Assembly: GCA_028875125.1 (NCBI GenBank)
Contig: JAPPGC010000080.1
Location: 1 to 39,370 of the forward strand
DNA length: 39,370 nt
Direction: 5' to 3'
Source: Bacteroidota bacterium
Lineage (GTDB): Bacteria > Bacteroidota > Rhodothermia > Rhodothermales > Bin80
Shown here piece by piece: positions 1-39,370 of the stretch. Position 1 is the first letter of the stretch. Each line of letters opens with the position of its first letter. The position numbers and the translations under genes were made by a program. Below the pieces are notes generated by a model. That model worked only from the letters and a program-made list of their open reading frames with translations. It did no database searches and was not told the origin of the DNA.

Positions 1-76
1 AGAGGTACCCGGTGTGGGATCGCATACGATCAAATTCGCCGTGGTGAAAAAACGCGTTCAACTGAATGTGTACTAG
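1..76 (+). CDS. 3' end of a secreted T9SS-type protein gene (partial)
   Basis: Only the last 24 codons are present, ending at TAG 74-76; the frame starts at base 2. The readable tail (EVPGVGSHTIKF, then VVKKRVQLNVY) is nearly identical to the C-terminus of the protein encoded at 321-3776. It is therefore the end of a paralogue carrying the same C-terminal sorting/anchoring module. The rest lies outside the window, so its length and function cannot be judged. The similarity continues past the stop codon into the spacer. Confidence 0.8.
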   Translation, partial: EVPGVGSHTIKFAVVKKRVQLNVY

Positions 77-233
77 ACTCGACGATGTGACAACTTCAAT
101 AGCGCAGAATACATGGCGAAACATGAAAACTTATCTGCGTATCGCCCAAGGCACTGGCTGCTCTTGATTGGGGGCTCTAGTTTCTTTTCAACCTGGTCTT
201 TGGTTGATGATTCTTAGTAACTTGATCTTTGAC
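2..233 (+). repeat. Tandem duplication, left copy (gene 3' end plus spacer)
   Basis: Bases 2-233 align without indels to 3702-3933 (offset exactly 3700), with scattered substitutions in both the coding tail and the noncoding spacer. Similarity stops abruptly after 'cttgatctttgac'. The conserved noncoding part shows a recent tandem duplication rather than independent acquisition of related genes. Confidence 0.85.
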
Positions 234-320
234 CCATAGCAACCTTATTTTTCAGTTCATCTATCTGGGGCCTGCCTGGACTCGGCTTGCTGCTTGCTCA
301 TCCAAATAAAGACGACAAAT

Positions 321-3300
321 ATGAGCAATCACAAACGCTTACTTTCGCTGATCTTGCTGGTGGTACTGGGGCTTGGTTCAGTATTCGAGACGCGTGCACA
401 GGTTGGAACGTGCACTTCGCCGCTGGGTGAGTCCTACCTGGACATCAACAATGTCCGGGCTCGTATTTTTAACAACGGTAATCTGTTCTGGCGTGGGAGT
501 CCACACGTCTATAATGTACCGAAGGGCGGGGGAGTGCAGGCTATCTTCAACAGTGGTATGTGGATTGGCGGTAAAGTGGATGGACAGTTGCGTGTAGCGG
601 CAGCACGTTACGGCAACTACCAGTTCTGGGCCGGTCCGTTGGATGATTACGGCGCGCCTCCTGCTGACTGCGCCGATTTCGATCGACTCTACAAGGTTAG
701 CATTGATGACATTCAGGATTACGAAGCCACTGGAGTTATTACACCGGACTTACGCGATTGGCCTACGGGTTTAGGGGCACCCACCTATGCTCCTCCCGGC
801 AACGGGGTTGATGACGATGGAGATGGAGAGACTGATGAGGCAGGAGAAACGATTTTCGTTTTGAGTCAGCCTCTTGCGCAACGGGTAGATCGTGTGATTG
901 ACCTCGCTGGCGGAGAGCGGCCAGCCATTCTCGGGGATCAGTCGATCTGGTGGGTCATGAATGACCGCGGGGATGAGCACAACGGAGCATCTTCGCCGCC
1001 GATTGGTCTGGAAGTGCACGCCACGGCATTTGCGTTCAGGACCGCAGGAGACATTGGTAATGCCACATTCTACAAGTACGATTTTCACTACAGGGGGAAT
1101 TGGCCCTTTACCGATGTCCACATAGCAATTTTCTCCGATCCCGATCTGGGGTACTTTGGGGATGACTGGGTAGGTTCCGATACCTCTTTGGGAGTTGGCT
1201 ATGTTTGGAATTCGGACAACGAAGATGAGCATTTTGATGGTTACGGATCTCCTCCTCCGGCGGCTGGATACGACTTATTGCAGGGGCCGATCGTGCCATC
1301 GCCTGGTGATTCGGCCAAGGTGAGTACTGAGTGGGTTCAAGATTTCAAGAACCTTGAAATGACCTCGTTCTTAAACTATTATGACGGTCCCTGTGTGATT
1401 TGCAGCCCCATTACTGCCTTGGACCAGTATAACTATATGCGTGGTCGGTGGAAGGATGGCAGGTGTATCACGGAGGGGTGGTATGGTCGAGAATTCTCTG
1501 AAAACTGTACAGCATACATGTTCCCGGGAGATCCCGGTACCAGCGATGATACTTGTCAGTACTGGTCTGAGTGCAATTCAGACGGCGCTGGAACAAACAT
1601 GGAGGCAGCAGACCGAACCTTTGCCATGGGAACGGGGCCGTTCACGATCGACCCAGGCGGCTTTCAGCAGATTGCTTTTGGATTAGTCTGGGCACGGGGC
1701 ACAGACAATTTTGATTCAGTTCAGAAAATGAAGGGGGCAAGCGCAGTTGCCCAAGCGGCATACGACATTGATTTCCAGATTCCGGCACCACCGGCTCCTC
1801 CCGAGGTAACGGTTACTGTTGTGGATGGAGGTGCAATTCTGGAGTGGACCAACTCGCCTCAGTCTAACAATTTCCTCGAGTCTTATCAGATTGAAGACCC
1901 ATTTGCCCCAGTGGCTAACAATATAGTCGAGTTCGAGGGGTATGAGGTGATTCAATATTCCAGCGCTCTGGATCAAGTGGGGGTAACTGTGGCGGTATAT
2001 GACGTAATTAATGGAGTGACGCGCGTGATCGATGGAAACCAGTTGATTTGGGATGGATTAATCCAGGAGGAGCAGGTGGTTGTGGCGAACGGTACGGATC
2101 GTGGGGTCCAGAATTTCCATATAGCCTCGGGTTTAACGAATTACACCATCTATCATTTTGGTGTTCAAGCTTATGCCCAGAACCACGATAATCCTGGGCG
2201 TAAGATATCTCGGGGACCGGTTACCCGCGTATCGGTCACGCCAACCAAACCGATGCTGGAAATTGCGCCTGCAGCGATCGCCGCAGCTGAGGACTTCACA
2301 TCTGCGGACTTTGTGGCAGCTAAGGATGGCATTGGAGATGGTTTTGTGAACGCGGACATTGTCAACCCGTCTGTAATCACGGAAGGCACGTATTCAGTCG
2401 AGTTCTTTGAGCATGAAGTTCCGGGCAAGGCTTTGAATTCGGCTACTGCGGAAGAAGAAGGGAATGTGGTTGATCCGATCAGTGCGGTGGAGGCCATTCA
2501 GAAAGTTGGCGATTTCGATGCGAGTGTGATTACATATAGTGTCAAGCGAGACGATGCTGTACTGTTTGATGGCAGATCCATTGACTATGCGGCTCCCCAG
2601 CGCGATAATGTGATGGTACTTGACGGGTTGTTGTGGACGATTCGCGGGCCGGATCCGGGATTCAAGGATTTTCAGGTTACAGCTAATGCAGGCGGACACG
2701 TAGATCCGCCGGCTTATGCCGCAATCACGTGGAACAACTTCCCCAATGCCCAGGGCATAGGCCTTAACCGGGCGAGACAGCAGACCAACGGGTCAATCTG
2801 GATGACCCATGCGGGCGGTGCTGCGCAGCCGTATACATCTTTCGTTGCCCGCAGCACGCGTAACGGTGGTAACGCTCCCTACATCGGGATTCGAGATTAT
2901 GAGATGCGTTTCACGGAGCGTTGCGCAAATGGGATCAATGGCGTCGTTGAGCCGGGCGATTGTTTGGGTCTTCGTGCATTTAGCGATGGTTCGTTGATTG
3001 AGATTCCAATTGAGTTGTGGGATACCGGAGTCGCCACGCCGAATGACGCCAGTGATGATGTGCGCCTGGTCCCGATTATTTGCGACACAAGCACCTGTGG
3101 CGGGGGAACGGAGCATGGTGTATTTGACATCGGTGGCGATCATCCTGCTTCGGGTGGGGCGAACGATCCGTTTACGGATTGGGTCTACTGGTATCCACCT
3201 GCGGATCTAACCCCTGGTGAGGTCGGTCACGACAGGTTCTTTGCCGGAGAGATCGAGGTAGGGCATGAGATCATTGCGAGGTTGGTGCTTGTGGGATGGA

Positions 3301-3776
3301 ATATTGGAACTGCTTCTCCATACACACCCGATATGCCTGAGTTGGGTACTGTGCTCAGGATCGTGACCTCCAAGCCTAACCAGCCCGGGGACGTGCATAC
3401 GTTCAGCACCGAGGGTTATGCTGCAACGGAGTTTGATCTCGCAACGAAGCAACTCCGCCTGGAGGATATAGGAATTGTGCCGAAACCGTACAAGGGCGCG
3501 TCCGCCTACGAGGTGGGTCAATTCACGGATGAGGTACGCTTAACGAATCTGCCCGACGTGGCGACGATTCGTGTGTTTACGCTCAACGGTACGCTCATTA
3601 AGACGATCAATAAGCAATCGCCGGGTGTGGCAACCATTTCATGGAATTTGACGACGGATCATAATCTACCGATAGCGAGCGGAATGTATCTGATTCATAT
3701 TGAGGTACCCGGTGTGGGTTCGCATACCATCAAATTCGGCGTGGTGAAAAAACGCGTTCAGCTGAACGTGTACTAG
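321..3776 (+). CDS. Large secreted protein with T9SS-type C-terminal sorting domain
   Basis: About 1151 aa from ATG 321; an upstream in-frame TTG at 294 would add nine residues before the signal peptide and is less likely. The N-terminus is a clear Sec signal (basic MSNHKR, hydrophobic LLSLILLVVLGLG, cleavage near TRA-Q). Around residues 165-175 an acidic run (DDDGDGETDE) resembles a calcium-binding loop. Residues of roughly 490-640 look like a fibronectin type III/Ig-like beta domain. The last ~90 residues have the family pattern of T9SS sorting domains: a PYKG motif, TNLP, IRVFTLNG, SGMYLIHIEVPG. Several Cys pairs suggest an extracellular disulfide-bonded protein. No catalytic domain is recognised; a surface structural or binding role is inference. 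A paralogue lies directly upstream. Confidence 0.85.
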   Translation: MSNHKRLLSLILLVVLGLGSVFETRAQVGTCTSPLGESYLDINNVRARIFNNGNLFWRGSPHVYNVPKGGGVQAIFNSGMWIGGKVDGQLRVAAARYGNYQFWAGPLDDYGAPPADCADFDRLYKVSIDDIQDYEATGVITPDLRDWPTGLGAPTYAPPGNGVDDDGDGETDEAGETIFVLSQPLAQRVDRVIDLAGGERPAILGDQSIWWVMNDRGDEHNGASSPPIGLEVHATAFAFRTAGDIGNATFYKYDFHYRGNWPFTDVHIAIFSDPDLGYFGDDWVGSDTSLGVGYVWNSDNEDEHFDGYGSPPPAAGYDLLQGPIVPSPGDSAKVSTEWVQDFKNLEMTSFLNYYDGPCVICSPITALDQYNYMRGRWKDGRCITEGWYGREFSENCTAYMFPGDPGTSDDTCQYWSECNSDGAGTNMEAADRTFAMGTGPFTIDPGGFQQIAFGLVWARGTDNFDSVQKMKGASAVAQAAYDIDFQIPAPPAPPEVTVTVVDGGAILEWTNSPQSNNFLESYQIEDPFAPVANNIVEFEGYEVIQYSSALDQVGVTVAVYDVINGVTRVIDGNQLIWDGLIQEEQVVVANGTDRGVQNFHIASGLTNYTIYHFGVQAYAQNHDNPGRKISRGPVTRVSVTPTKPMLEIAPAAIAAAEDFTSADFVAAKDGIGDGFVNADIVNPSVITEGTYSVEFFEHEVPGKALNSATAEEEGNVVDPISAVEAIQKVGDFDASVITYSVKRDDAVLFDGRSIDYAAPQRDNVMVLDGLLWTIRGPDPGFKDFQVTANAGGHVDPPAYAAITWNNFPNAQGIGLNRARQQTNGSIWMTHAGGAAQPYTSFVARSTRNGGNAPYIGIRDYEMRFTERCANGINGVVEPGDCLGLRAFSDGSLIEIPIELWDTGVATPNDASDDVRLVPIICDTSTCGGGTEHGVFDIGGDHPASGGANDPFTDWVYWYPPADLTPGEVGHDRFFAGEIEVGHEIIARLVLVGWNIGTASPYTPDMPELGTVLRIVTSKPNQPGDVHTFSTEGYAATEFDLATKQLRLEDIGIVPKPYKGASAYEVGQFTDEVRLTNLPDVATIRVFTLNGTLIKTINKQSPGVATISWNLTTDHNLPIASGMYLIHIEVPGVGSHTIKFGVVKKRVQLNVY

Positions 3777-3933
3777 ACTCGCCGTTGTGACAACTTCAAT
3801 AGTGCAGAATACATGGCGAGTCATGAATCCTTACCTGCATATCGCCCAGGGCATTGGTTGCTCTTGATTGGGGGCTCTAGTTTCTTTTCAACCTGATCTT
3901 TGGTTGATTATTCTTTGTAACTTGATTCCTGAC
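3702..3933 (+). repeat. Tandem duplication, right copy (gene 3' end plus spacer)
   Basis: Partner of 2-233: the last 25 codons (including the stop) of the gene ending at 3776 plus the following ~157 bp. The spacer part from about 3872 is shared by three places in the window (168-233, 3868-3933 and 15404-15466), recognisable by 'tcttttcaacctg' followed by 'ttgattga' and 'cttgat' variants. Confidence 0.8.
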
Positions 3934-4960
3934 TTGACTCTGGTTAACCTGTTCAATCACTCCTGCTTCATCAAACCACTTGGTCGGGAGGTCGGGATTT
4001 CGAAGCTACTCTGACGTGTTGAATTGATTAATGGGATATATCCATTCAGTTTTTCTGACCGTATCAGCGCTAGCCTATTTGCTGCTATTGTTTGATTTAG
4101 GTGATTCTTCTGGAACGGTTCTGCAGGCGGCCAGGATCATTCTGATATTACTGGCCCTAGTATTACTGGGGTGCCTTGTACTTCGCGTTGGGCCTGAAGT
4201 CCAATCAAAAGTACTCAAGGCCGCTCAAATTATAGCAGTTATTATGTCCGCAGTATACTACTATTAGCTGTGGAGTGCCGGTTTTTTTGCCGGACTGGAA
4301 ATCGAGATTGGCCTTTTCAGATGGCTTGTGCGCTTATTTGCTCCGATATCGGGGTATACGTTCCTCTCCCTTGCCGTCCGCACTTTAGACCGAATAGTCA
4401 AGACATTGAGTCAAGTGGGGCGGTTACGTGATTGAGACTGAGACGTTTGTCAGGCAGATCAGAAAAGCGACGCCTTCCCATGAGCAGATACTCCAATAGA
4501 ATTTGCCCTCGATAAGAGGGGAGGGCCGTCGCCTCCGTTGGTTGGGAGTAGTTTGATCGCATGCGATGTGCATCCAGATACCCGCGAATAACTGCTCGTG
4601 TTCGCTTCCATTTTCCACCTAACAGCCACGCCATGGCCACGGAATGATCCAGTATGATTCGCTGGAAAAGTACTGCTTTAAATTGGCCTGGAGGAAGGTT
4701 CTTGTATAGCATCAGAAGGCTGTTGCGGATGTTGTAATAGAGCTTGCGCTCGTTCTCACGGGGCAGTGTCGCACCACCGATGTGATAAACTTTACTTTCT
4801 GGAACCACTCCAATCTCGTGACCCGCCCGGCGGAGTCGCCAACAGAGGTCAATTTCCTCCATATGGAGGCCAAAGGTCTCGTCAAGGAGCCCTATTGTGT
4901 CAAGTGCACTTCGGCGAAGTAACATAGCCGCACCGCTTGCCCAATCGGTACGTACGGGCA
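3872..4960 (+). repeat. Segmental duplication copy A (truncated, decayed)
   Basis: Direct repeat of 15404-16485. From 4031 to 4960 the two copies align at a constant offset of 11525 with only substitutions; upstream of 4031 a few small indels occur. The homology ends sharply at 4960/16485. Copy A lacks the first ~163 codons of the glycosyltransferase gene and carries a nonsense codon in the membrane protein gene, so copy B is the ancestral intact locus. The same orientation means recombination between copies would delete the intervening 11.5 kb and leave one intact locus. Confidence 0.9.
4031..4435 (+). pseudogene. 4-TM membrane protein, copy A, nonsense mutation
   Basis: Begins at ATG 4031 exactly like the intact copy at 15556. 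Codon 79 is TAG (4265-4267) where copy B has TTG (15790-15792), a single T-to-A change. Beyond the stop the frame stays open to the shared TGA at 4433-4435. As it stands only 78 residues (three hydrophobic segments) would be made. Divergence downstream of the stop is visibly higher than just before it, consistent with relaxed selection. Confidence 0.85.
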
Positions 4961-4961
4961 C
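4398..4961 (-). pseudogene. GT2 glycosyltransferase, copy A, 5'-truncated
   Basis: 187 codons matching residues ~163-349 of the intact enzyme at 15923-16972, including the ASGAAMLLRR and MEEIDLCWRLRRAGHEIG segments. The apparent GTG start at 4961 corresponds to an internal Met of the intact gene, and homology stops there. The nucleotide-sugar-binding N-terminal half, with the NNDV motif, is gone, so this piece should be inactive. Its 3' end overlaps the converging membrane protein pseudogene by 38 bp, as in the intact copy. Confidence 0.88.
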
Positions 4962-5136
4962 CTGTCGAAGTCAGGATTTGTCCCCGCAACGGCGAGCAAC
5001 CTACACGCAAAAACTCAAGGAAGGAGGCGCCGTGCACACGCGAGTCACCTCCGAACCCGAGTTCTATCAGCGGGAGATCTATGAAGCATTAGACATAGAT
5101 CCGATCCCTTTACCCACCGTATCCACAACCGTCTGA
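4961..5136 (+). pseudogene. C-terminal fragment of an unrecognised ORF, possibly an IS transposase
   Basis: Immediately after the copy A breakpoint an open frame runs to TGA 5134-5136 and encodes about 58 residues, including TYTQKLKEGG and a tail REIYEALDIDPIPLP. It has no start codon of its own; the open frame continues backwards only into the antisense of the glycosyltransferase fragment. The tail is reminiscent of the C-termini of some DDE transposases (IS1634/IS4-like), but I cannot confirm this by eye. Its position at a duplication boundary would suit an IS remnant. Confidence 0.3.
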
Positions 5137-5309
5137 ACAAAAACTCCAAGTTCCCGTAGTGCCCTAATGGATCCAAAACAGGCCAAAATCGGCCTGTGGC
5201 TGCACCAAAACCAGTTTTTATGTCAAAGTCGGGTTGGTGGAAGGAAACAACCATAAGGTATACGAAAAAGTGTTCAATTAGTGCAAGTTTAATTGAGCTG
5301 CGCAACCAA
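5137..5309. other. Intergenic, no gene seen
   Basis: Between the ORF fragment and the end of the GH4 gene. It contains one clean hairpin (5178-5197, listed separately) and otherwise nothing recognisable. Confidence 0.5.
5178..5197 (-). terminator. Candidate rho-independent terminator downstream of the GH4 gene
   Basis: Perfect 7-bp stem ACAGGCC/GGCCTGT around a 6-nt loop. On the minus strand it is followed by a short T-run (TTTT, 5175-5178). It sits about 110 bp past the GH4 stop codon. The T-run is short, so the assignment is tentative. Confidence 0.35.
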
Positions 5310-6662
5310 TTACGCCAATTCGGGCAGTGCATCCGCTTGCAGTCGGCACATTTCAGCAAGGAAACTGGCCGCGCTCCGATAGGAGTGAATAGTGGGATCA
5401 AGCAATAACGCCTGCAGAAGGGTATGTCGGCTCTTGTCAGCATAGGCATCTACCAGCAACCGATTAATGGAACACTGGGTGCGCAGCAAGGCCAATACCG
5501 GTTCTGGAAGCTGTGGCATGTGCGCCGAATGCACGCCATCGGAGTCCACCCGGGCTGGAACTTCAACAATTGCGTCCTCGGGCAACCCCGGGACCGCTCC
5601 ATGGTTGACGACATTGACCGCGTCCAGGGCTTGTGCATGGCCAGCGGCCATGCCTTCCATTATAGGGATGGCGAGCTCTCCGGATAGCACCAGAGGGTCA
5701 GCGTCCAGGCCTTTCGTTTCCTCACCTGCGCGGCCAGGGCTAAACAGGGCATGTTCGGTGGCTTTTTCGTGCAGGTTGTAAATCCATTTCGGCACCGGTC
5801 CGGTTTCCCATGGATGGCCGTCGACCGGGTCATAGTAAAACTGAAGCAGTGAGCTGCCCAGAAATTCTGCGGCCCATCGGATATACTCACCGATATGGTT
5901 GGTGCCTGGCGAGGGATAGAGCCCGAATACGCGCAGCAGGATGCGGCTCAAGGCCATTTCATCCCACTCGCCCAGGGGATGCGCCTTTCGCTCCCGCTTT
6001 CGCAACACGGGGTAAAGGTCCTCGCCGGTGGATCGCCGGGTAATGGACTGGAACCAGGTAATATGGTTCAGGCCGCTGGCCCGCGCATCAATATCATCTG
6101 CCGGAATATCCAACAGGCGGCTAAGCTGCTGTTTTCCATGAAACACGCCGTGGCACAGCCCAATCATTCGAACAGACGACAATCGCGTCAAGGCTTCACA
6201 CAGTTTGGTTAGGGGATTGGTGTAATTGAGCAGCCAGGCATTCGGGCAGACACGCTCCATGGCCCGTGCAATTTTAAGCATTGGCGGCATGTTGCGCAGC
6301 GCATGGAACAGACCGCCCGGGCCGCCATTTTCTCCATAGATCTGGTTAAACCCGAACAAACGCGGGACATGAAAATCCTGCGCCCAATAGAAGTAGCGCT
6401 GGCGCTCAATCGCGACGACCACATAGTCTGCCCCATCCAACGCCTGGGCCAGGTCAGTTGACGCATGAATGGACATCTTGCGTCCAAGCCTTCGCGCGAC
6501 GCTTTCCGCATAGGCTTCCATCGCTGGCAGACGCGCTGCACTGACATCCATCAGCATCAACTCAACCCCTAGCGCGCAGAGTGTGTCACTGAGGCAGACA
6601 TCGCGGATCGTCGCCGGGCCAAACTCCCGGCTTCCCGCACCCACAAGTACTATTTTGACCAT
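5310..6662 (-). CDS. Glycoside hydrolase family 4 (alpha-galactosidase MelA-like)
   Basis: 450 aa, normal length for GH4. These enzymes use NAD+ and a divalent metal (usually Mn2+) to cleave glycosides by an oxidation-elimination mechanism in the cytoplasm. Visible family features: N-terminal dinucleotide-binding VLVGAGSREFG (residues 6-15), a GENGGPGG loop (110-117), LNYTNP (145-150), the metal ligands Cys170 (GLCHGVF) and His200 (LNHITWF), and the GTNHIGEY segment. These fit the MelA branch; the sugar specificity (alpha-galactoside, alpha-glucoside or glucuronide) cannot be fixed from sequence alone. ATG 6662 is chosen over TTG 6704 because 6687-6704 appears to lie inside the ISL3 terminus. 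The IS end is only about 25 bp upstream, so the original promoter is probably displaced. Confidence 0.88.
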   Translation of the reverse strand: MVKIVLVGAGSREFGPATIRDVCLSDTLCALGVELMLMDVSAARLPAMEAYAESVARRLGRKMSIHASTDLAQALDGADYVVVAIERQRYFYWAQDFHVPRLFGFNQIYGENGGPGGLFHALRNMPPMLKIARAMERVCPNAWLLNYTNPLTKLCEALTRLSSVRMIGLCHGVFHGKQQLSRLLDIPADDIDARASGLNHITWFQSITRRSTGEDLYPVLRKRERKAHPLGEWDEMALSRILLRVFGLYPSPGTNHIGEYIRWAAEFLGSSLLQFYYDPVDGHPWETGPVPKWIYNLHEKATEHALFSPGRAGEETKGLDADPLVLSGELAIPIMEGMAAGHAQALDAVNVVNHGAVPGLPEDAIVEVPARVDSDGVHSAHMPQLPEPVLALLRTQCSINRLLVDAYADKSRHTLLQALLLDPTIHSYRSAASFLAEMCRLQADALPELA

Positions 6663-6686
6663 ATCACCGCTGGAGCTTAGAAATAA

Positions 6687-8024
6687 GGGGCTTCCGTTTT
6701 CCAAGTGGGTAGGATGTCAGAATTAGGATGAACGAGTGTTAGTCGTAAAAGGTTTGGGATTGATTTCGTTGTTATTTTGGTTCTGTTTTTCGATTCAGTT
6801 CGAATTTCATCATCTATGGCTCTACGGATTGAAGATATCAATCATCTATTAGGGATTTCCCCTCCGTGGGAGGTCTCGGAGATCAAGCAAGATAAAGCGA
6901 AATTCACGGCGGAGATTCACGTGGTCTGTTCGGACCGTTCAGTTCTTCGGTGTCCAGACTGTGACAAAGTCTGTCCGGGTTACAATCATCGTCTTCGGAA
7001 GTGGCGTCACACGGGGATCTGCGACTATCGGACGCAAGTGGTGGCGCACGTTCCACGGATAACGTGTTCGGAGCATGGGATCAAGACTGTTTCGGTGCCC
7101 TGGACAGAAGCGCGCGTGCATTTTACGACGGCGTTTGAGGCGCGTGTAATCGAGTGGTTACAGGATGCCACCAGTATTTCGGCTGCGGCTTCACGGATGG
7201 GGGTGAGTTGGACGATGGTTGCCCATATCTGTGTGGATGAAACCTCCTCCAAAAAGGGGCACAACTACATTACGGTGGTCTCGAACCCGAAGACAGGCAC
7301 GGTGCTCTATGTCGGCGAGGGTCGCACGATTGCGAGCTTGGAAGGCTATTATGATGGATGTTCGTCTGCGCAACTGGATGCTCTTGAAAGTGTGAGCGTG
7401 GATATGTGGCCCGCGTACATCTCAGCCACAAAAGCACGGGCTCCAGGCGCAGACGAAAAGATTGCATTTGACCGTTTTCATGTGGCCAAATACATTGGAA
7501 CCGCCGTGGATGAAGTTCGCCGACAGGAGAACCGGGAATTACGTAAACAAGGCATTGAGGATCTTATCGGGACCAAGTATGATTGGCTGACCAATCGGAG
7601 GAACATGTCGGTTCGACAAAAGAAACGATTCCAGCAATTAAAGACCAGTTCGCTGAAAACGGCTCGGGCATGGGCCATCAAGGAACTGTCCCAGAAACTG
7701 TGGCTTTATGTCCGTCGCGCCTGGGCGCTCAAAGCCTGGAAGCGGTGGTTATCCTGGGCGATGCGTTGTCGGCTTGAACCCATGAAAAAGGCGGCCAAGA
7801 CCATCAAGACGCACCTGTGGGGAATCCTTAATGCCATCATTCTAAAAGCCAGTAACGGTCCGGCGGAAAGCATCAACAGTCGCATCAAAGCCGTAAAAAT
7901 TCGTGCCCGTGGATTCCGAAACAAACAGCGGTTTGCCAACGCCAGTTACTTCTATCTCGGAGGATTGGATCTCTACCCCGCAGGCTTACGAAAACAGGTC
8001 GCCCACTCTTAAAAGCGAAGAGCC
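6687..8024 (+). mobile_element. ISL3-family insertion sequence
   Basis: Encloses one ISL3-type transposase gene. The right end reads AAAAGCGAAGAGCC (8011-8024), whose reverse complement GGCTCTTCGCTTTT resembles GGGGCTTCCGTTTTCC at 6687, giving imperfect terminal inverted repeats. The flanks agaaataa (6679-6686) and agaaatgt (8025-8032) match in the first six of eight positions, which suggests an old or mutated 8-bp target duplication as expected for ISL3. The left end is uncertain by a few bases. The element sits between the GH4 and propeller/PHP genes. Confidence 0.7.
6816..8012 (+). CDS. ISL3-family transposase, with an apparent internal deletion
   Basis: 398 aa from ATG 6816; an in-frame TTG at 6777 is an alternative start. 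An N-terminal zinc-finger-like region (CPDCDKVCPG, later a CSEHG motif) precedes a helix-turn-helix (AAASRMGVSWT) and the DDE domain: CVDETSSKKGHNY, then VDMWPAY, then NGPAESINSRIK. Family members normally have about 20-25 residues between the GVSW helix and the first catalytic Asp (an RAV.RGL.RR-like helix). Here GVSW is followed after only about six residues by CVDE, suggesting a short in-frame deletion and perhaps an inactive enzyme. Gene and IS otherwise look complete. Confidence 0.85.
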   Translation: MALRIEDINHLLGISPPWEVSEIKQDKAKFTAEIHVVCSDRSVLRCPDCDKVCPGYNHRLRKWRHTGICDYRTQVVAHVPRITCSEHGIKTVSVPWTEARVHFTTAFEARVIEWLQDATSISAAASRMGVSWTMVAHICVDETSSKKGHNYITVVSNPKTGTVLYVGEGRTIASLEGYYDGCSSAQLDALESVSVDMWPAYISATKARAPGADEKIAFDRFHVAKYIGTAVDEVRRQENRELRKQGIEDLIGTKYDWLTNRRNMSVRQKKRFQQLKTSSLKTARAWAIKELSQKLWLYVRRAWALKAWKRWLSWAMRCRLEPMKKAAKTIKTHLWGILNAIILKASNGPAESINSRIKAVKIRARGFRNKQRFANASYFYLGGLDLYPAGLRKQVAHS

Positions 8025-8028
8025 AGAA

Positions 8029-8169
8029 ATGTATGTAGCCATAAACGCCGGTCGAAGACTCTTGACTTTGGCCCTAGTACTATCCTGGTAAGGAAGTCTG
8101 GTTGCCCAACCTGCCATCTATCCGATTGAGCCCCAAACATACGTAAATGCGCTGACGGGCGGCAATTAC
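8029..8169 (+). other. Signal peptide-coding 5' portion of the propeller/PHP gene, interrupted by TAA
   Basis: From ATG 8029, in frame with the gene at 8170, the sequence encodes a convincing signal peptide: MYVAINAGRR then LLTLALVLSW, a TAA stop at 8089-8091 (codon 21), then GSLVAQ and PAIYPIEPQTYV leading straight into the downstream frame. An AQ cleavage site follows the stop. The frame is preserved on both sides, so a single nonsense change explains the break. ATG 8029 lies inside the presumed IS target duplication, meaning the IS also removed the natural ribosome-binding region. Confidence 0.75.
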
Positions 8170-10581
8170 ATGTTTAACTATTACCTGCCGCCGCCTGGTT
8201 CAAGCTATCCGTGGTGGCCAGCCTGGCATCCCAGTGGGGAAAGAATTGCTTTCAGTATGCATGGCACGCTCTGGTCGCTGGACCTGGCTACGGGCGTGGC
8301 CCAAGAGCTCGTAAGCAGACCCGAGTATTTATCATCGCCCGCCTGGCATCCTGATGGCAAGCAGCTCGCGTTTATTGCCGACGATGGGGAAGCGATTAAT
8401 CTGTATTTGCTGGATCAGTCTGATAGTACAGTGATGGCCCTGACCGAAGGGCGGCATTTGAATCTGGACCCTGCATGGAGCCCGGATGGCACGCAGTTGG
8501 CCTATGTGTCCACAGCGCCCAACGGCTATTTCAATGTGAAAATTCGCACTTTTTCGGACGGATCAGAAATTTCCGTGACCAACGACAATTCCTTTGGGCG
8601 ACCCAGGTTGTATTTCGGCGAATATGACTTGCACATCCAGCCGGCGTGGCATTCTGGCGCGGACAGCCTGCTCATTTTATCCAATCATGGCATTGCGCTG
8701 GGATCCGGCGGCGTGTTTGCGATTCCTGCCACTTCGGATGCCATGAATCACGCACGACTGGTGCACAAGGAGGAAACGCTGTATCGCACGCGGGCCGATA
8801 TATCTCCAGATGGTACCCGCTTTGTGTACAGTTCTCATTTGGGCGGACAATTCAACAATCTCTTCGTACTTCCGGTACTGGGCGGGGAGCCGTATAAACT
8901 AACCTTTGGCACCTGGGACAGCTTCCACCCCCGCTTTTCTCCCGACGGTCACCAAATCGTCTATCTGTCGAATCAACATGGCTTGCCGAAGCTGCGTATG
9001 CTAGAGACTTTCGGCGGCAAAGATGAGGAAATCACCATCGAATCATGGCAGTGGATCGGTGATGTAGGCCAGGTACATGTTACGGTGGTAGATGATGCCA
9101 CCGGTCGCGTGTTGCCAGCCCGCATTTACACCTGGGCCAGCGATGGTAAGACCTACACGCCGCCTGACACTTACCAGCGGCAGGGTCGGATGACGGAACA
9201 TTTCTTTCATACTGATGGAAGCTACACGCAAATAGTTCCAGCCGGACCCTACACGGTTGAGGCCGTTCACGGGTTTGAGTATCATCCTGCTGCGGTCACG
9301 GTAGAGGTCATGCCGGAAGAATTGACGGAAGTAACCTTGCGACTGCGTCGCATGGCAGACCTCAAATCACACCACTGGTATAGTGGCGACAACCATGTCC
9401 ACATGAACTATGCCGGCAATCTCCGGAACACCCCGGAGAATCTCGTGGCTATGGCACGGGCGGAAGATCTGGATGTAATCGGAGAGCTCATTGCCAACAA
9501 GGACAATCGCATTCTGGACTATCAGTACTTCACGGGCAGGCCGCATCCACTTACGGACTCAAGCATCGTGCTGTACTTCAATGAGGAGTACCGTCCTCCG
9601 TTCTATGGCCACGTTTCCTTCATCAATCTAACCGAGCATCTGATATCTCCGTTCACCACCGGATACGAAGGAACAGCAATCGAAAGTCTGTATCCCAGTA
9701 ACACGCAGATGTTTAGGCTGGCCCGAGAGCAGGGAGCCCTTAATGCCTATGTCCATCCCTATTGGGGTAACGAGGATCCGCTGGACACGAACCTGGGCGT
9801 GGCCAAGGCTTTCCCGGTGGATTTGGCCCTGGGCGTGTTGGACTATCATGAATTGGTTTCGGGAGCGGGTTGGGCCGCCTACCACGTCTGGCATCAGGCA
9901 CTCAGAAATGGATTCAATCTCCCCGCTGTGGGAGGGGAGGACGCCATCAGCAGCCTGCATCGCACCGCGATTATTGGCCAGGTACGCGCCTATGCCTACA
10001 TGCCGAACGGATTAAGCTGGGATGCTTGGCTGCATGCGATTCGGTCTGGTGACATGTTCGTCACCAACGGCCCCTTGCTTGACCTTGAAGTTGACGGGAT
10101 ATCTATGGGAGACACATTGCAATTGGATGCGAGTGTCCAGTCGGTAACGGTCTCCGGACAAGTCCAGTCTATTGTCCCGCTGGATCAGATTGAGTTGGTC
10201 GCAGGAGGGCATGTAGTCAGTCTGGGGCCTGTATCGTCAAATGCTGACGGTACGCAGTTCACGTTCAGTCAGAAGGTAAACATTGAGTCCAGTACCTGGC
10301 TTACCCTGCAGGCCGCCTCGGCGTCACCCATACATCCGATTGATGACAGATTCGTCCAGGCAACCACCAATCCCGTATGGATTCTAAAAGAGGGTAAGCC
10401 GGTACGGTCGTCAAGTGCTGCCGAGTACTTCATCCGCTGGATTGACAAATTGTCGGTTATGGCCAACGACCATCCAGGCTGGCGTTCTGAAGCCGAGCGC
10501 TTGCATGTCCTTGGCGAATTTGCCGAGGCCCGCCGCGTTTACGAATCCCGTCTACAAGAGGCCCTTGAATTGGGCCGCTAA
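8170..10581 (+). CDS. TolB-like propeller fused to a CehA/McbA-type PHP metallohydrolase (probably a pseudogene 8029-10581)
   Basis: 803 aa from ATG 8170; the ancestral gene started near 8029 and is cut by a stop in its signal peptide. Residues ~15-280 contain six PD40/TolB-like blades (PAWHPSGERIAFS, PAWHPDGKQLAF, PAWSPDGTQLAYV, PAWHSGADSL, DISPDGTRFVY, PRFSPDGHQIVY). A carboxypeptidase-regulatory-like beta domain follows (~300-400), then a PHP-type metal-binding domain starting at GDNHVHMNY, with YVHPYW and GGEDAIS later. The family is normally exported. If translation restarts at 8170 the product lacks the signal peptide and about 24 mature residues and would stay in the cytoplasm. It converges with the PIG-L pseudogene, stop codons 1 bp apart. 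Substrate unknown; the neighbours suggest a role in sugar or glycoside use. Confidence 0.8.
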   Translation: MFNYYLPPPGSSYPWWPAWHPSGERIAFSMHGTLWSLDLATGVAQELVSRPEYLSSPAWHPDGKQLAFIADDGEAINLYLLDQSDSTVMALTEGRHLNLDPAWSPDGTQLAYVSTAPNGYFNVKIRTFSDGSEISVTNDNSFGRPRLYFGEYDLHIQPAWHSGADSLLILSNHGIALGSGGVFAIPATSDAMNHARLVHKEETLYRTRADISPDGTRFVYSSHLGGQFNNLFVLPVLGGEPYKLTFGTWDSFHPRFSPDGHQIVYLSNQHGLPKLRMLETFGGKDEEITIESWQWIGDVGQVHVTVVDDATGRVLPARIYTWASDGKTYTPPDTYQRQGRMTEHFFHTDGSYTQIVPAGPYTVEAVHGFEYHPAAVTVEVMPEELTEVTLRLRRMADLKSHHWYSGDNHVHMNYAGNLRNTPENLVAMARAEDLDVIGELIANKDNRILDYQYFTGRPHPLTDSSIVLYFNEEYRPPFYGHVSFINLTEHLISPFTTGYEGTAIESLYPSNTQMFRLAREQGALNAYVHPYWGNEDPLDTNLGVAKAFPVDLALGVLDYHELVSGAGWAAYHVWHQALRNGFNLPAVGGEDAISSLHRTAIIGQVRAYAYMPNGLSWDAWLHAIRSGDMFVTNGPLLDLEVDGISMGDTLQLDASVQSVTVSGQVQSIVPLDQIELVAGGHVVSLGPVSSNADGTQFTFSQKVNIESSTWLTLQAASASPIHPIDDRFVQATTNPVWILKEGKPVRSSSAAEYFIRWIDKLSVMANDHPGWRSEAERLHVLGEFAEARRVYESRLQEALELGR

Positions 10582-10582
10582 G

Positions 10583-10951
10583 TTACAGTGACAACAGATT
10601 GGCAAACAGGCGATACGCCCCGGCAACCGCATAGGGCAGCTGGCGGTGGAACGCGAGTGCACAATATGTATAGTGTCCCTGGCCGTATTCCGCCGTTAGA
10701 AATGCGCCCCTTTGCGGATCCTGACCGGTGTCATGGGTTTCGATGAGTGCCGAATAGGCCTCATCCCATTCCGTAAAGAATTTGGATCCGCGCTGCTCCA
10801 CCCAACCGTCAAAATCGGCCGCTGTAATGGCATTGGGGACCGTGATAACAGGATGGTCTGGGGCGAGAATCGTAACGGGTGCGTCCTTCTCGGATACCTC
10901 CTCGGCATCCCGAGGCAACCGGGCTGAAATCGGTGCCATCTGCTCTGGCAC
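10583..10951 (-). CDS. PIG-L fragment 3: C-terminal tail
   Basis: 122 residues after the TAG, beginning at an internal non-ATG start (MPEQMAPISARLP). It completes the amidotransferase-like domain, with an AEYGQGHYTYCAL segment typical of the end of these proteins. Translation on its own is unlikely. Confidence 0.5.
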   Translation of the reverse strand: MPEQMAPISARLPRDAEEVSEKDAPVTILAPDHPVITVPNAITAADFDGWVEQRGSKFFTEWDEAYSALIETHDTGQDPQRGAFLTAEYGQGHYTYCALAFHRQLPYAVAGAYRLFANLLSL

Positions 10952-10957
10952 AAATTC

Positions 10958-12820
10958 CTATGTCTGATACAATACAATCAGGTTGCCACCTGCATGGGCA
11001 TAGTCCATAAGCCTCCGGTTGTAGGTAAGCAAGTCCTGCCGCACTGCATAGGCCCGTGTTCCGACCATAATCACATCATAGGAATCCAAATCACCGCTGG
11101 CCAAGTCCGCTTCCTGAAGCAAAGTAACATGAGCACCCAATTGCTCAATTCCCGAGGGAACCTCATCGCCGACACCCATGACGTAGCCCACATTCAAACC
11201 CGCGGCAACTTCCACATTGAGTCCACTGACCAAAGTAGTGGCATCGCGGAACAGGTAGCGTGTTTCCATATCTCTATTACGGATAACCTGGTAGCCCCCA
11301 CTGATACGGGCGTCGCCGATCTGGGCAATGGCGCGGACTTCATATTCCTCGCCCGCTTGCAATGTTGGCACAGCTACATCAAAGGAAAACGTATGACGTT
11401 CTCCCGCTTGTGCGAAGGACAAGTCGTAACCGGCCGGATCGGCCGTCCATCCCTCGGGAAGGCCGAGCTGCAACAGGCCCTGCGTGCCACCGGCAACATT
11501 GTTAATGACCTCAGTATCCACTGTAAAAAGACTGCCGCCTTCCTGGGGGATAACGATTCGCTGCGCAGGTACCACATTGACGGCCACCGCTGGCATAACC
11601 TGAAGTTTTCTCATGACAAACCCATAGGGCAGGTCTGCTTCACGGGTTTTCACGTCCCGCATCAGCATAACAGGCACGCCCAGGACCTCCATCGTAGCGG
11701 TTACGCGTAAGCTGGCGGGTCGGGTAGGCCGATGAATCCACATGGGCTCACGCCACTGGAAGTGGTTTTCCTTGACACTTGACCGAAAGAAGTAGGGACG
11801 GGCATAGGGAACATTCTCCGGAACGGTAGCGGTAAACATCACTTGGTGATAGGGTGCTGATTGCCGGGTGTCCGACTCAATCTGCCAATCGTCTGCGGTC
11901 AATCCCGACGGATCGTCAATGGCCAGCATCACACCGTCAGCCTCGATTGCCGACGGATTATACAAGCGTGCATGCACCTCAAAGGTCTGGCCACGGACGA
12001 CTGGCCCCATTGTGCTGGGTGCTTGCCAGAAGCTTACCGCCGCCGGCGTGCCTGGCGGCTGTGCTGTCGCAGTAAGGGTAATGCCCATCGCCGTGGTTAT
12101 GGCATGCTGGAATTGCTGCTCCTTAATTCGCAGCATAAAGGCGGTTTCTGAGTCGGATGGGAGCAAGTTCAGCAGTGCCCTGATCTGATCAAGGCCAGCG
12201 ATTAGGTGGCCAACGACTGCTGCCGGACTACTCGGCTTGAGCGCCGTCATGGCCTCATGCACATGCATGGCTATTCCTGCCAAAAGGTCTGTTGCGCCCG
12301 CTGGGGGCATTTCGCCCGTCAGTTCAAATAAGCCTCCCAGCGAGACGTCCAGTCCATCAAAGATACCTTCTTCCGGTGCGGGGCCGGGCTCGGACAGGCG
12401 TTCATAGTAATAGGGAACCGGTCCCATACTGGATCGCGATCGTCCGCTGGTTTGTGAACGCTGAAGACTTAGGCCATAAACGCCAAAGTTGTAATAGGAA
12501 TCTCCGATCCACGGGCTGTGCTGTCCGGCATCAAAGTTGATACACCAAGGTTGGTTTTCGCGTACGCCGCCACGATATGATTTGCGCACGGTCCACGGCC
12601 GCAGACCTTCTTCGGTAATCTGTTCGGGAAACCGGTCTGGATCAGCTGCCGCCGCGACCGCGTCAGAGGTCAGTCCGCCAATAGCCTGATGATTGCCGTG
12701 CCCGTCTCGCACGGACCCGTGGAATCTACTGATGACCACAAGCGGCCGATTCGTCCGAATTATCCGCACCATATCGGAGAGCAGGCACTCTGTGTCCCAG
12801 CTTTTGAGCGATTCTTCCAA
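10958..12820 (-). CDS. PIG-L fragment 2: rest of deacetylase and beta-sandwich domains
   Basis: 620 residues readable from an internal start codon at 12820 (MEESLKSWD) to the TAG. It carries the HxxH-type motif (GHGNHQA), a helical linker, Ig-like domains (~260-500) and most of the amidotransferase-like C-terminus. This start is simply the first one after the upstream stop; any independent translation would give a protein with no AHPDDE motif and no export signal. Confidence 0.65.
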   Translation of the reverse strand: MEESLKSWDTECLLSDMVRIIRTNRPLVVISRFHGSVRDGHGNHQAIGGLTSDAVAAAADPDRFPEQITEEGLRPWTVRKSYRGGVRENQPWCINFDAGQHSPWIGDSYYNFGVYGLSLQRSQTSGRSRSSMGPVPYYYERLSEPGPAPEEGIFDGLDVSLGGLFELTGEMPPAGATDLLAGIAMHVHEAMTALKPSSPAAVVGHLIAGLDQIRALLNLLPSDSETAFMLRIKEQQFQHAITTAMGITLTATAQPPGTPAAVSFWQAPSTMGPVVRGQTFEVHARLYNPSAIEADGVMLAIDDPSGLTADDWQIESDTRQSAPYHQVMFTATVPENVPYARPYFFRSSVKENHFQWREPMWIHRPTRPASLRVTATMEVLGVPVMLMRDVKTREADLPYGFVMRKLQVMPAVAVNVVPAQRIVIPQEGGSLFTVDTEVINNVAGGTQGLLQLGLPEGWTADPAGYDLSFAQAGERHTFSFDVAVPTLQAGEEYEVRAIAQIGDARISGGYQVIRNRDMETRYLFRDATTLVSGLNVEVAAGLNVGYVMGVGDEVPSGIEQLGAHVTLLQEADLASGDLDSYDVIMVGTRAYAVRQDLLTYNRRLMDYAHAGGNLIVLYQT

Positions 12821-12880
12821 TGTCTTGGAATATCCGTAATCCGCAGCACTGGAAAAATAGAGGTCGTCGAGTCCATAATA

Positions 12881-13243
12881 TCAACCGGCAAGGCGTAGCT
12901 CTTCAGTTCGGATCAATCCCAGGCCGTCGAATAATTCAGGGCCGATGGCATTGGCACCAGCTTCCCCGCGATTGACCGAGAAAAGCGCCACTCGTGCACC
13001 GACTCCTCGGCTCAAGTACGTAAGCAGTCCGGCATGTTCATCATCCGGATGGGCTACGGTATGCAGCATACTGCCGGTAGTAGACAGCTTTAGCAGTTGT
13101 TGCCACAACCCCGAACTTCCCCGGTCCACGTCCAGAAGGTTTCCGCCTTCGGTATCCAAGGTGCTCAAGAGTACAGATTCTTGAGCCAAAGTCACAGAAG
13201 AGCAGAATAAACAGGCTACAAATAGGATGGTCAAGCGGCACAT
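12881..13243 (-). CDS. PIG-L fragment 1: signal peptide and AHPDDEH motif
   Basis: The 120 residues translated before the TGA: export signal, about 40 linker residues and the first metal-binding half of the deacetylase domain, ending [10 protein letters not shown]. The product lacks the second metal site and cannot fold as a complete enzyme. The next codons after the stop (YYGLDDLYFSSAADYGYSK) continue the family sequence without interruption. Confidence 0.7.
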
Positions 13244-13298
13244 GAGTTGGCAAAATTATGGTGAATAGCTGCAGAATCAATCTAGCTGGCAACGATAG

Positions 13299-15101
13299 CT
13301 ATCCTGTGCTTGGCGCATGGTCCTCAGTAGCTTGCAGCGCAACCTTTACGGTGGCCACTGCGCCCAGGGCAGCTACAATAAGCAGCAGAACACCACTCAA
13401 GGTGCGTCCGGTAACCAGATAGCCAATACCCAGGAGGCTGGACCATAAGAAGATGACGCCCAGGGCCCAAGCCATCCAGCGTTTCCACGCCGCCGGATCG
13501 GGGCTGCCGCCAGGTACGATTTTGGCGATAGGTCCCCACCACCCCCCGGGGCGAACGCGCTCATAGAAAGCGACCAGTCGGGATTCTGAGTCGGGCTTCG
13601 TGGTCAGGGCCACAATCACCCATATGACAGAGCAAGCTACCAAAATGGCAATAGCCCGAATAAAGTCATACTCTCCGCTGTAGAATGTCTGCATGGCAGC
13701 AAGCGAAGATCCACCTAGCAGACCGGTGCCCTCTAGCACACGGATCCAAAGGAATCCGTTGGCAAACACGAACGAGGCCAGGATGGCAGAGATTTCAGCC
13801 CAGGCATTGATTCGCCACCAGTACCATCGCATCAGCCATACAACAGCCAAGCCTGCCGTGATCTCAATCACATAGATCCACCCGCGTTCGATGGATTCCA
13901 TTTGCCAGGCGGTGATGGCCGCCAGCGTGACCAAAACGAGCACGGCCCCGCGCGAGGCCACTACGTAGTGACGTTCAGTAGCATCTTTACGAACGAACCT
14001 CCGGTAGACATCATTAACGAGATAGGAGGCCCCCCAGCACAAATGGGTGTCCATGGTACTCATGAAGGCAGCCAGAAATGATGCAACCATCAGCCCCTTG
14101 AGTCCCGCAGGCATCAGTTCACCGATCATCATGGGGTAGGCCAGTTCGGGATCGGCCGCCAGTTCAGGCCCAGCCAATGCAAGCGGAAATATGAGCAACG
14201 AACCCAAGCCGACAATAATCCAGGGCCAGGTCATCAGTACCGTGCCGGCAAAGCTGAACCAAAGCGCACCTAGCAGGGATTGTTTTTCGTCTTTCGTCGC
14301 GAAGAGCCGTTGGGCAATGTATCCGTCTCCCTGGCCGCTTCGAGTCCACAAGACAAAGATAAGCAGGAAAAAACTCACAGCTTCCAGGGAGCTCAGGTGG
14401 GCAGGGTTGGGAATGATGTCCAGTGTGGCCGGATTGTCGCTGATATTGGCAATCTGATTGGCCATTTCTGCTGGACCGCCAAGTTGATGCAAGACGATGC
14501 CTGCCAAAATGACGGTGCCCAGGATTCCGGTAGTAAATTGCAACAGATCCGTAACGACCACGCCCCAAAGCCCGCTGGCAACGGTGTAGACCATGGCCAG
14601 CGCAATACACACCACCAAAGTTACTTCGGGCTCCCAGCCCAACAGCACCTGGCTGAATTTGATCATGGCCAGCATCACCCAGCCCATGACCACGCAATTC
14701 TTCAGTACGCCTTGATAGACGGCCGAGAATCCGCGAAGCAGCGCGGCGGGCCGCCCGGAATACCGCAATTCAATGAACTCGGCATCGGTAATGATGCGGG
14801 CCCGCCGCCACATACGGGCATAGAAGAACACTAGCATCATAATGCCGGCGGCCTCATACCACCACAGCCAGTTACCGAATATTCCGTTGGTCCTCACCAA
14901 TGAAGAGGTGACCAGTGGTGCGTCCGTCGCAAACCATGTTGCTGCAATGGATGTGCCGGCTATCCACCAGGGGAGGCTGCGGCCAGCCACGAAAAAATCC
15001 TCAACACTGCCCCCTGCTTTTCGCGTAAACCACAGGCCGACCACCGCCGTTACGACCCCGTATGCGGCAATGACAATCCAGTCAAGAAGGACGAGCTGCA
15101 T
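13299..15101 (-). CDS. Sodium:solute symporter (SSS family)
   Basis: 600 aa, apparently intact, with about 13-15 hydrophobic segments in the LeuT-fold arrangement of SSS carriers. Family features include the N-terminal DFFVAGRSLPWWIAGTS stretch after TM1, FIELRYSGRPAALLRGFSA, and the ASFLAAFMSTMDTHLCWGASY segment that contributes to the sodium site. Such carriers import sugars, amino acids or vitamins with Na+. Its place in front of a deacetylase and near GH4 makes a (amino)sugar or glycoside the likeliest substrate (inference). It starts at ATG 15101 and is followed after 55 bp by the PIG-L pseudogene. It is the only large gene of that pair without a stop codon in frame. Confidence 0.88.
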   Translation of the reverse strand: MQLVLLDWIVIAAYGVVTAVVGLWFTRKAGGSVEDFFVAGRSLPWWIAGTSIAATWFATDAPLVTSSLVRTNGIFGNWLWWYEAAGIMMLVFFYARMWRRARIITDAEFIELRYSGRPAALLRGFSAVYQGVLKNCVVMGWVMLAMIKFSQVLLGWEPEVTLVVCIALAMVYTVASGLWGVVVTDLLQFTTGILGTVILAGIVLHQLGGPAEMANQIANISDNPATLDIIPNPAHLSSLEAVSFFLLIFVLWTRSGQGDGYIAQRLFATKDEKQSLLGALWFSFAGTVLMTWPWIIVGLGSLLIFPLALAGPELAADPELAYPMMIGELMPAGLKGLMVASFLAAFMSTMDTHLCWGASYLVNDVYRRFVRKDATERHYVVASRGAVLVLVTLAAITAWQMESIERGWIYVIEITAGLAVVWLMRWYWWRINAWAEISAILASFVFANGFLWIRVLEGTGLLGGSSLAAMQTFYSGEYDFIRAIAILVACSVIWVIVALTTKPDSESRLVAFYERVRPGGWWGPIAKIVPGGSPDPAAWKRWMAWALGVIFLWSSLLGIGYLVTGRTLSGVLLLIVAALGAVATVKVALQATEDHAPSTG

Positions 15102-15555
15102 GCAAATTGGCGTTGGATTGTCAATCTAATTTACAATTCACAGAGCATTAATGGCGGGTAACTGACCCGGACTTCGCACCGGCCCTGCGAAATCGGCTTT
15201 TTGGGATGAATAATGACCGAATCATCTTCCCCACAGGAAAGTCAAACAGAGCCGGGAAAAGGTCAGTAGCGCAGACTCCTGCAAGCCGTCGCCCGAGCGC
15301 AAGCTGCATCGGGGATAAACCGTAAATCAAACCGACCATAGGGGCGATGTCATGCCATCGTTAACCACTTGACTCTACAAGCCAGGGGAGGGATGAATAC
15401 TATGGGCTAGTATCTTTTCAACCTGATTGTTGATTGACGATTCTTAGTATCTTGATCCTTGACTCTTGTTAACCTAGTCACTGACTCCCGATTTATCTAA
15501 CCACTTGGTAAAGAGATCAGGATTTCGAGGCTATTCTGACGTGTTGAATTTATTC
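15102..15555. other. Intergenic, no convincing gene; holds the right boundary of the island
   Basis: About 450 bp upstream of the symporter and of the 4-TM gene. A 63-codon minus-strand frame (15148-15339) is unrecognised and I do not call it. From about 15404 the sequence belongs to duplication copy B and resembles the spacers at 168-233 and 3868-3933. The promoter of the symporter gene should lie near 15102-15200, but no clear -35/-10 pair stands out. Confidence 0.5.
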
Positions 15556-16485
15556 ATGGGATATATCCATTCAGTTTTTCTGACCATATCAGCGTTGGCC
15601 TATTTACTGCTACTGTTTGATTTAGGTGATTCTTCTGGAACGGTTCTGCAGGCGGCCAGGATCATTCTGATATTACTGGCCCTAGTATTACTGGGGTGCC
15701 TTGTACTTCGCGTTGGGCCTGAAGTCCAATCAAAAGTACTCAAGGCCGCTCAAATTATAGCAGTTATTATGTCCGCAGTATACTACTATTTGCTGTGGAG
15801 TGCCGGTTTTTTTGCCGGACTGGAAATCGAGATTGGCCTTTTCAGGTGGCTTGTGCGCGCGCTTGCTCCGATATTGGGGTACACGTTTCTCTCCCTTGCC
15901 GTACGCACTTTAAACCGTAAAATCAGGACGTTGAGTCAGGTGGGGCGGTTACGTGATTGAGACTGAGACGTTTGTCAGGCAGATCAGAAAAACGACGCCT
16001 TCCCTTGAGTAGATACTCTAGAAGAATTAGCCCCCGATAAGAGGGGAGTGCCGTTGCCTCCATTGGTTGGGAGTAATTCGATCGCTTCCGATGTGCATCC
16101 ACATACCCGCGGATGACTGCCCGGGTTCGCCTCCATTTTCCACCTAACAGCCACGCCAGGGCCACTGAATGATCCAGTATGATCCGCCCGAGAAGTACTG
16201 CTCTAAAGTGGCTAGGAGGAAGGTTTTTATATAGCATCAGAAGACTGTTGCGGATGTTGTAATAGAGCTTGCGCTCGTTCTCACGAGGCAATGTCGCACC
16301 GCCGATGTGATAAACTTGACTTTCTGGAACCACTCCAATCTCGTGGCCCGCCCGGCGGAGTCGCCAGCAGAGGTCAATTTCCTCCATATGGAGGCCAAAG
16401 GTCTCGTCAAGGAGCCCTATTGTGTCAAGTGCACTTCGGCGAAGTAACATAGCCGCACCACTTGCCCAATCGGTACGCACGGGCA
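15404..16485 (+). repeat. Segmental duplication copy B (intact locus)
   Basis: Partner of 3872-4960. It contains the full 4-TM protein gene, and the 3' half of the intact glycosyltransferase; that gene continues beyond the repeat boundary at 16485 to its start at 16972. The 38-bp overlap between the two converging genes is present in both copies. Confidence 0.9.
15556..15960 (+). CDS. Small four-helix membrane protein, DUF4293-like
   Basis: 134 aa from ATG 15556; TTG 15505 would add 17 residues with no signal-like character and is not present as an open frame start in copy A. Four hydrophobic segments are visible: residues ~4-22, 31-52, 60-90 and 99-118. The C-terminus ends in a basic stretch finishing VGRLRD, resembling the conserved R-rich end of the Bacteroidota DUF4293 family, which also has about this length and topology. 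The function of that family is unknown to me. It converges on the glycosyltransferase gene, overlapping it by 38 bp at the 3' ends. Confidence 0.75.
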   Translation: MGYIHSVFLTISALAYLLLLFDLGDSSGTVLQAARIILILLALVLLGCLVLRVGPEVQSKVLKAAQIIAVIMSAVYYYLLWSAGFFAGLEIEIGLFRWLVRALAPILGYTFLSLAVRTLNRKIRTLSQVGRLRD

Positions 16486-16972
16486 TGTCATACTGGCCTG
16501 AATCTTGCTCAGTGTAGTCAAAAATACGACCGCGAGCCAGAGGATATCCAAGTCGATCAAGGTACCCTCCGCAAGCTCCAGCGTATTCAAAATGATCCCG
16601 GCGACTGAATTGCAGGATCTTGGGTTGGAGTGCTGCAAAAGACGGGTTGCTTTCGGCAAACGATACGAGTGGCTGCAGCCAGTTTTCAGGAACGGCTACA
16701 TCATTGTTGAGGAGTACGATATAGTCCGCAGTAACCTCCCGAATCGCTTCATTATTCCCACGGCTGAAAAGCCAGTTTTCCGGGTGACGAATGATGCGGA
16801 TCCGGGGGAATTGGCCCGCTATCCATTCACTGGACCCGTCCGAGGAATTATTGTCCGCAAAAACAATTTCCAAGTTGGGCCAGCTCGTCTGCGCTACCGT
16901 TGGCAAGCATTTTTGGAGGATAGGCAGTGCGTTGTAAGAAACAATGATGACTGCCACGCGAGGAGTCCGCAT
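15923..16972 (-). CDS. Family 2 glycosyltransferase
   Basis: 349 aa. GT-A fold: N-terminal VAVIIVSYNALP (residues 6-17), FADNNSSDGS (~38-47), the DXD-equivalent LLNNDV (~87-92), then ASGAAMLLRR and the MEEIDLCWR acceptor/catalytic segment (~170-205). The layout matches rhamnosyl-transferase-like GT2 enzymes that extend cell-surface polysaccharide or lipopolysaccharide; donor and acceptor are unknown. C-terminal ~120 residues are amphipathic with a possible membrane-associated helix (DHSVALAWLLGGKW). It is the last gene of the minus-strand trp/lipoprotein cluster, 39 bp after the DUF4296 gene. A truncated copy lies at 4398-4961. Confidence 0.9.
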   Translation of the reverse strand: MRTPRVAVIIVSYNALPILQKCLPTVAQTSWPNLEIVFADNNSSDGSSEWIAGQFPRIRIIRHPENWLFSRGNNEAIREVTADYIVLLNNDVAVPENWLQPLVSFAESNPSFAALQPKILQFSRRDHFEYAGACGGYLDRLGYPLARGRIFDYTEQDSGQYDMPVRTDWASGAAMLLRRSALDTIGLLDETFGLHMEEIDLCWRLRRAGHEIGVVPESQVYHIGGATLPRENERKLYYNIRNSLLMLYKNLPPSHFRAVLLGRIILDHSVALAWLLGGKWRRTRAVIRGYVDAHRKRSNYSQPMEATALPSYRGLILLEYLLKGRRRFSDLPDKRLSLNHVTAPPDSTS

Positions 16973-39317: not shown

Positions 39318-39370
39318 TGTCTAGCGTCAATTAGAATTTAAGTCGGCGACAATTAGAATTTAAGTTTTTG
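39318..39370 (+). mobile_element. Probable terminus of an IS21-type insertion sequence (runs off the window)
   Basis: The 16-bp sequence CAATTAGAATTTAAGT occurs twice, at 39328-39343 and 39350-39365, with a period of 22 bp (about two helical turns), preceded by TGT at 39318. Multiple repeated terminal sites beginning with TG are typical of IS21-family ends that bind the IstA transposase. No transposase sequence is visible because the window stops at 39370, so the family assignment is inference. Confidence 0.45.

Follow-up and report, generated by a model that had tools for sequence, protein, structure and literature searches.

In this study, we identified a catabolic island without an integrase in an uncultured Rhodothermaceae bacterium. 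On balance, we favour the reading that this island was laterally acquired, is bracketed by a long target duplication in the clade formed by two genomes of one genus (G000 and G004), and moved through its flanks, and we hold it with moderate confidence. The window that we analysed is the entire 39,370-nucleotide contig C37 of G000, a 3.3-Mb MAG in 129 contigs, and G004 is its same-genus relative. A first-pass annotation of the window had proposed an acquired island between direct repeats; this was upheld by an empty site in a third genome (G009) and by the sharing of the island with a fourth (G008).

Results

The island lies between two direct repeats, copy A at 3877-4960 (1084 bases) and copy B at 15407-16485 (1079 bases), neither assigned a strand, which are 91.5% identical over the aligned bases. 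A match of more than 1 kb at 91% cannot be due to chance. The first-pass annotation had aligned 4031-4960 with 15556-16485 at a constant offset of 11525 and with no indel, which is true, the sole indel (5 bases, at about 3927-3934) lying to the left of that stretch; it had placed the start of the repeat at 3872, which the alignment corrects to 3877. Identity in the alignment is only about 80% at the left end. Copy A comprises an intergenic tail, a 4TM pseudogene with a TAG stop at about 4266 and a GT2 gene that lacks residues 1-161 and retains residues 162 to the end. Copy B comprises the tail, an intact 4TM ORF and the 3′ part of a full-length GT2 glycosyltransferase gene (15923-16972, minus strand, 349 aa, PF00535), and it starts abruptly, 100 bases past the stop of the left-flanking gene in its match to A. 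No further copy of the repeat was found in the 3.3-Mb G000 genome, the one exception being a short match to its tail at contig position 100-226. At a threshold of E<=1e-40, GT2 was single-copy in 36 of 39 genomes, the extra matches being those of G000 and G004 plus one paralogue in G027.

The left flank is a large gene with a type IX secretion (T9SS)-type C-terminus (294-3776, plus strand), recognized as an ORF with weak C-terminal T9SS hits. Upstream of it lies the 3′ end of a paralogue of this T9SS-sorted surface gene (1-233, plus strand) with the same downstream tail, and positions 1-233 are 90% identical to 3702-3933. More full or partial copies of these tandem paralogues are present on G000 contigs C61, C115 and C117, and others on several contigs of G004, G008 and G009. 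At the right end of the contig, the final ~50 bases (39317-39369) recur on several G009 contigs and at least once in both G004 and G008, and are probably another repeat end.

At the left edge of the island, copy A is cut at 4960, inside the GT2 gene and beside insertion-sequence (IS) debris, as had been claimed. Joined to it is the 16-base sequence CCTGTCGAAGTCAGGA (4961-4976, plus strand), which occurs in exact form 8 times in G000, in most cases at a distance of 35-55 bases from a contig end. Because conserved sequence adjoins each of the other copies on one side and unique DNA adjoins it on the opposite side, we read it as the terminal repeat of a multicopy IS, whose interior is absent here and which is fused to GT2. 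It is followed by a 3′ fragment of about 258 bases from an IS1634-family transposase element (4976-5234, plus strand), 95% identical to G007 C42:83439-83697, where the 544-aa ORF is of the IS1634 family. A possible transposase fragment had been noticed next to copy A; this IS1634-family fragment is what had been seen, although the 16-base end of a different IS stands between the two. The right edge is an orphan sequence (15193-15406, no strand assigned) present only in G000 and G004, with no IS match in its own genome or in relatives and no match of any kind outside these two genomes.

Between these edges lie a GH4 glycosidase gene, an ISL3-family element, a propeller/hydrolase gene, a PIG-L deacetylase pseudogene and a symporter gene, identities that the first-pass annotation had assigned, together with that of GT2, and that domain and profile matches bear out. 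The GH4 gene (5310-6704, minus strand, PF02056/PF11975) is an open frame whose true start is likely near 6662, and relatives of the family align from residue 14-15. The ISL3 element (6688-8023, plus strand) has imperfect end repeats with 13/18 matches and a transposase gene at 6777-8012 (NF033550/PF01610), the frame of which is open in G000. In G008, this transposase gene is split by a TnpB (OrfB_IS605, Cas12f-like) element (L084 7913-9181), with a 16-base overlap at window positions 7537-7552. The next gene encodes a TolB-like propeller and a CehA/McbA (PHP-type) metallohydrolase (8029-10581, plus strand, NF038032); a TAA stop at 8089 in its signal peptide occurs in G000 and is absent from G004 and G008. 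The PIG-L pseudogene (10583-13243, minus strand) is interrupted by stops, one of which, at 12881-12883, is common to G000, G004 and G008, so that the gene must already have been inactive when the island spread. Another, at 10958-10960, is private to G000, and each genome has further private lesions. Directly left of its island, G008 also has an intact 899-aa PIG-L paralogue with about 70% DNA identity (L084 183-2882). The SSF sodium:solute symporter gene (13299-15101, minus strand, PF00474) is an open frame and is 99% identical in G004 and G008. The island had been described as decaying. This decay is real in the PIG-L gene and, in G000, in the N-terminus of the propeller/hydrolase gene, but it is partial, the GH4, symporter and ISL3 frames being open.

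No integrase ORF or tRNA was found in the window, and no known RNA family in the island. An integrase-type genomic island or ICE was rejected on both counts, and no tRNA or RNA gene was found that could serve as an attachment site. A megablast search with the island gave no plasmid or phage match, and carriage by plasmid or phage was likewise rejected; no excised circle was seen. The same set of cargo genes, at about 70-75% DNA identity, occurs in other genera of the family (G010, G011 and G012). Within the genus, the cargo was found only in G000, G004 (where the symporter side is assembled) and G008.

G004 carries both repeat copies and both junctions, the same to the base as in G000. Its contig C21 corresponds to 1975-5154 of the window and its contig C84 (8778 bases) to 7896-16673, the assembly lacking the island part 5155-7895 (the GH4 gene and the greater part of the ISL3 region); contig C9, which overlaps C21 by 39 bases, provides the upstream T9SS gene pair, tandem as in G000. 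Among the ten genus members surveyed, G000 and G004 were the only two with junction A. Comparison with relatives for presence or absence of the island, which the first-pass annotation had called for, revealed an empty site with one 4TM/GT2 copy on contig C32 of G009, where the order is T9SS gene, LRR gene, single 4TM and full GT2, without the island. The T9SS gene is near the GT2 locus in G009 as well, and the LRR gene occupies the place that the repeat and island have in G000 and G004, the cargo there being different. The LRR protein has 875 aa and a T9SS tail (L055 17060-19687). In G008, there is one GT2 locus, and the island lies on another contig, without the repeats, between IS1634 and ISL3 fragments. 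None of the genomes examined has a post-deletion locus, both carriers of the insertion having kept the island, and none has a two-copy GT2 locus without the island.

Averaged over 300-base windows, the islands of G000 and G004 are 99.1% identical, as compared with 95.4% for the core as represented by the right half of the window itself (Mann-Whitney p = 3e-9, an indicative value because adjacent windows are non-independent). Between G000 and G008, the island is 99.1-99.2% identical, against about 88% for the core. The numbers of private changes in the three islands are nearly equal, at 27, 35 and 33 in 7,178 bases. The G000-G004 left flank, from the T9SS gene to copy A, is 86-92% identical in most windows, and the block of low divergence extends from about 4954 to about 15510, so that its right end lies ~100 bases into copy B. 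The contrast between an island at about 99.1% and a core at 95.4% or about 88% indicates recent spread, and we interpret these identities to mean that the island moved recently between species. For G000 and G004, we infer transfer from divergence contrasts at one locus; an island inherited vertically amid heavily imported DNA would leave a similar picture, given that core identity between these genomes varies from one window to another between 87 and 99%.

An alignment of four copies, A and B from both G000 and G004, revealed 50 concerted sites, at which A equals B within a genome and differs between genomes, all within 4036-4898. The 15 orthologous sites, at which A matches A and B matches B across genomes, all lie within 3882-4009. 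In both genomes, the longest runs shared by A and B exceeded those of all 20,000 shuffles (p = 5e-5). Copies A and B of G004 are identical over 878 bases, which could be an assembler consensus. Judged from these alignments, A and B undergo gene conversion in both G000 and G004, the left end of the repeat being unreached. Such conversion makes the 11.5-kb deletion predicted by the first-pass annotation mechanistically plausible: the repeats do recombine in both carriers, as the claim that they make the island unstable would require, but no genome with the deletion was seen. The 15 fixed sites at the left end imply that differences between A and B predate the split of G000 and G004, and since they fall within ~140 bases, as against 0.9% divergence of the island, the copies look older than the present island allele or of other origin, having perhaps come from different lineages. 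Simple duplication at island insertion, as first proposed, is one possible origin of the repeat.

Discussion

In the reading that we favour, lateral acquisition would have brought in the GH4, propeller/PHP hydrolase, PIG-L and SSF symporter genes together with ISL3 and IS1634 debris, and insertion in the G000/G004 clade would have left them bracketed by a 1.08-kb direct duplication of the target, the 4TM/GT2 locus. Spread within the clade may have occurred by homologous recombination through 4TM/GT2, the island entering either as linear DNA that included both flanks or as an 11.5-kb circle by a single crossover. Such a circle would be freed by one crossover between A and B, after which a single intact 4TM/GT2 locus would remain. 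Entry through 4TM/GT2 would explain why a left flank diverged by 10-12% stands beside a near-identical island and the near-identical first ~100 bases of B. A stronger version, in which the island and one repeat copy together form an enzyme-free mobile element of 11.5 kb that propagates itself and has the duplication as its attachment site, kept by conversion, seems doubtful to us; in it, the 1-kb 4TM/GT2 segment of the freed circle would act as a homology arm for the same locus in other strains.

The age of the copies bears directly on an alternative order of events, in which a tandem duplication of 4TM/GT2 preceded the island, and the latter then inserted between the copies with the help of IS elements. 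The IS that ends exactly at the edge of copy A fits this order, as do the at least 15 A/B differences fixed in about 140 bases before the split, far above the 0.9% divergence of the island. However, A ends at an IS remnant and B starts abruptly, as if duplication and insertion shared breakpoints, and no two-copy, island-free genome was seen among those examined; we regard this order as possible but unlikely. Junctions common to the base and the mosaic of G000-G004 core identity would also be expected if a single insertion with simultaneous duplication had occurred in the ancestor of G000 and G004 and been inherited vertically, the diverged flanks being imported later. We consider such descent rather improbable, because the left end of copy A would need replacing in both lineages and a neutral, partly dead island would be expected to have diverged by about 4-5%, not by the 0.9% observed.

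An IS-bounded composite transposon of ISL3 or IS1634 type is brought to mind by the IS1634 debris at the left edge, the ISL3 copy inside and the IS1634 and ISL3 fragments that flank the G008 island, but the right edge (15193-15406) has no IS of the same family as the left, the single ISL3 copy is internal, and the flanking duplication is 1.08 kb rather than a short target repeat. This candidate was rejected as very improbable. Least probable of all is an assembly artefact fusing two loci or strain variants. Short-contig metagenome assemblies and a contig that ends in a repeat invite the suspicion, but the copies differ by 9%, B runs on into full GT2, and a separate MAG, G004, has both junctions as well, which counters the artefact of a single assembly that the first-pass annotation had named as a way to refute its proposal.

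The set of genomes available for comparison is unusually complete. In this natural case, an empty site, an occupied site and a second island location, together with gene conversion, can be compared directly in uncultured Rhodothermaceae. The question of whether catabolic islands can be moved and lost through long direct repeats alone, in the absence of an integrase, thereby becomes open to testing. The PIG-L gene, with its stop common to three genomes, is a dead gene carried between species as a passenger.

Our literature search for islands in Rhodothermaceae found nothing useful, and the closest parallels come from other bacteria. Insertion with long target duplication was described in Helicobacter pylori (Nobusato et al. 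2000, via PMC1643837 and PMC3154945); as described there, it involves mostly restriction-modification genes and differences between strains. As in that portrayal, foreign genes here lie inside a long direct target duplication and a relative has the empty site. Long target repeats are present at both edges (1084 and 1079 bases), as the class requires, and the one-copy, insert-free relative that it also calls for is found in G009 C32, though an LRR gene adjoins 4TM there. Copies made in a single event would be expected to be almost identical; those seen here are 91.5% identical overall and about 80% at the left end, with conversion tracts. Unlike the H. pylori case as so described, the insert is a catabolic island, the hosts are Rhodothermaceae, and the two copies have undergone gene conversion in both carriers. 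Minimal mobile elements and islands that spread via homologous flanks (PMC3082526, PMC2617782) have cargo between conserved genes and are incorporated by homologous recombination in the flanks. The present island may have been exchanged in a like manner, given its 99.1% identity beside flanks at 86-92% in most windows and the different cargo at this place in G009; its flanks are a duplicated segment and not two different genes. The H47 island of E. coli (PMC5426353) is mobile without a recombinase of its own and is lost by recombination between direct repeats. Our island likewise has no recombinase of its own and lies between direct repeats, but these are 1.08 kb long, whereas those of H47 are short, and H47 is lost independently of RecA, with excision shown by PCR. 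In the B. thailandensis megacircle (PMC6350997), a composite region circularises and re-enters beside a matching copy, much as the circle proposed here would re-enter at its matching copy; that circle is transposase-driven and has IS2-like ends, whereas no paired IS is present here. Taken together, insertion with long target duplication is the known kind to which this layout corresponds, and its spread resembles that of minimal mobile elements and flank-mediated islands.
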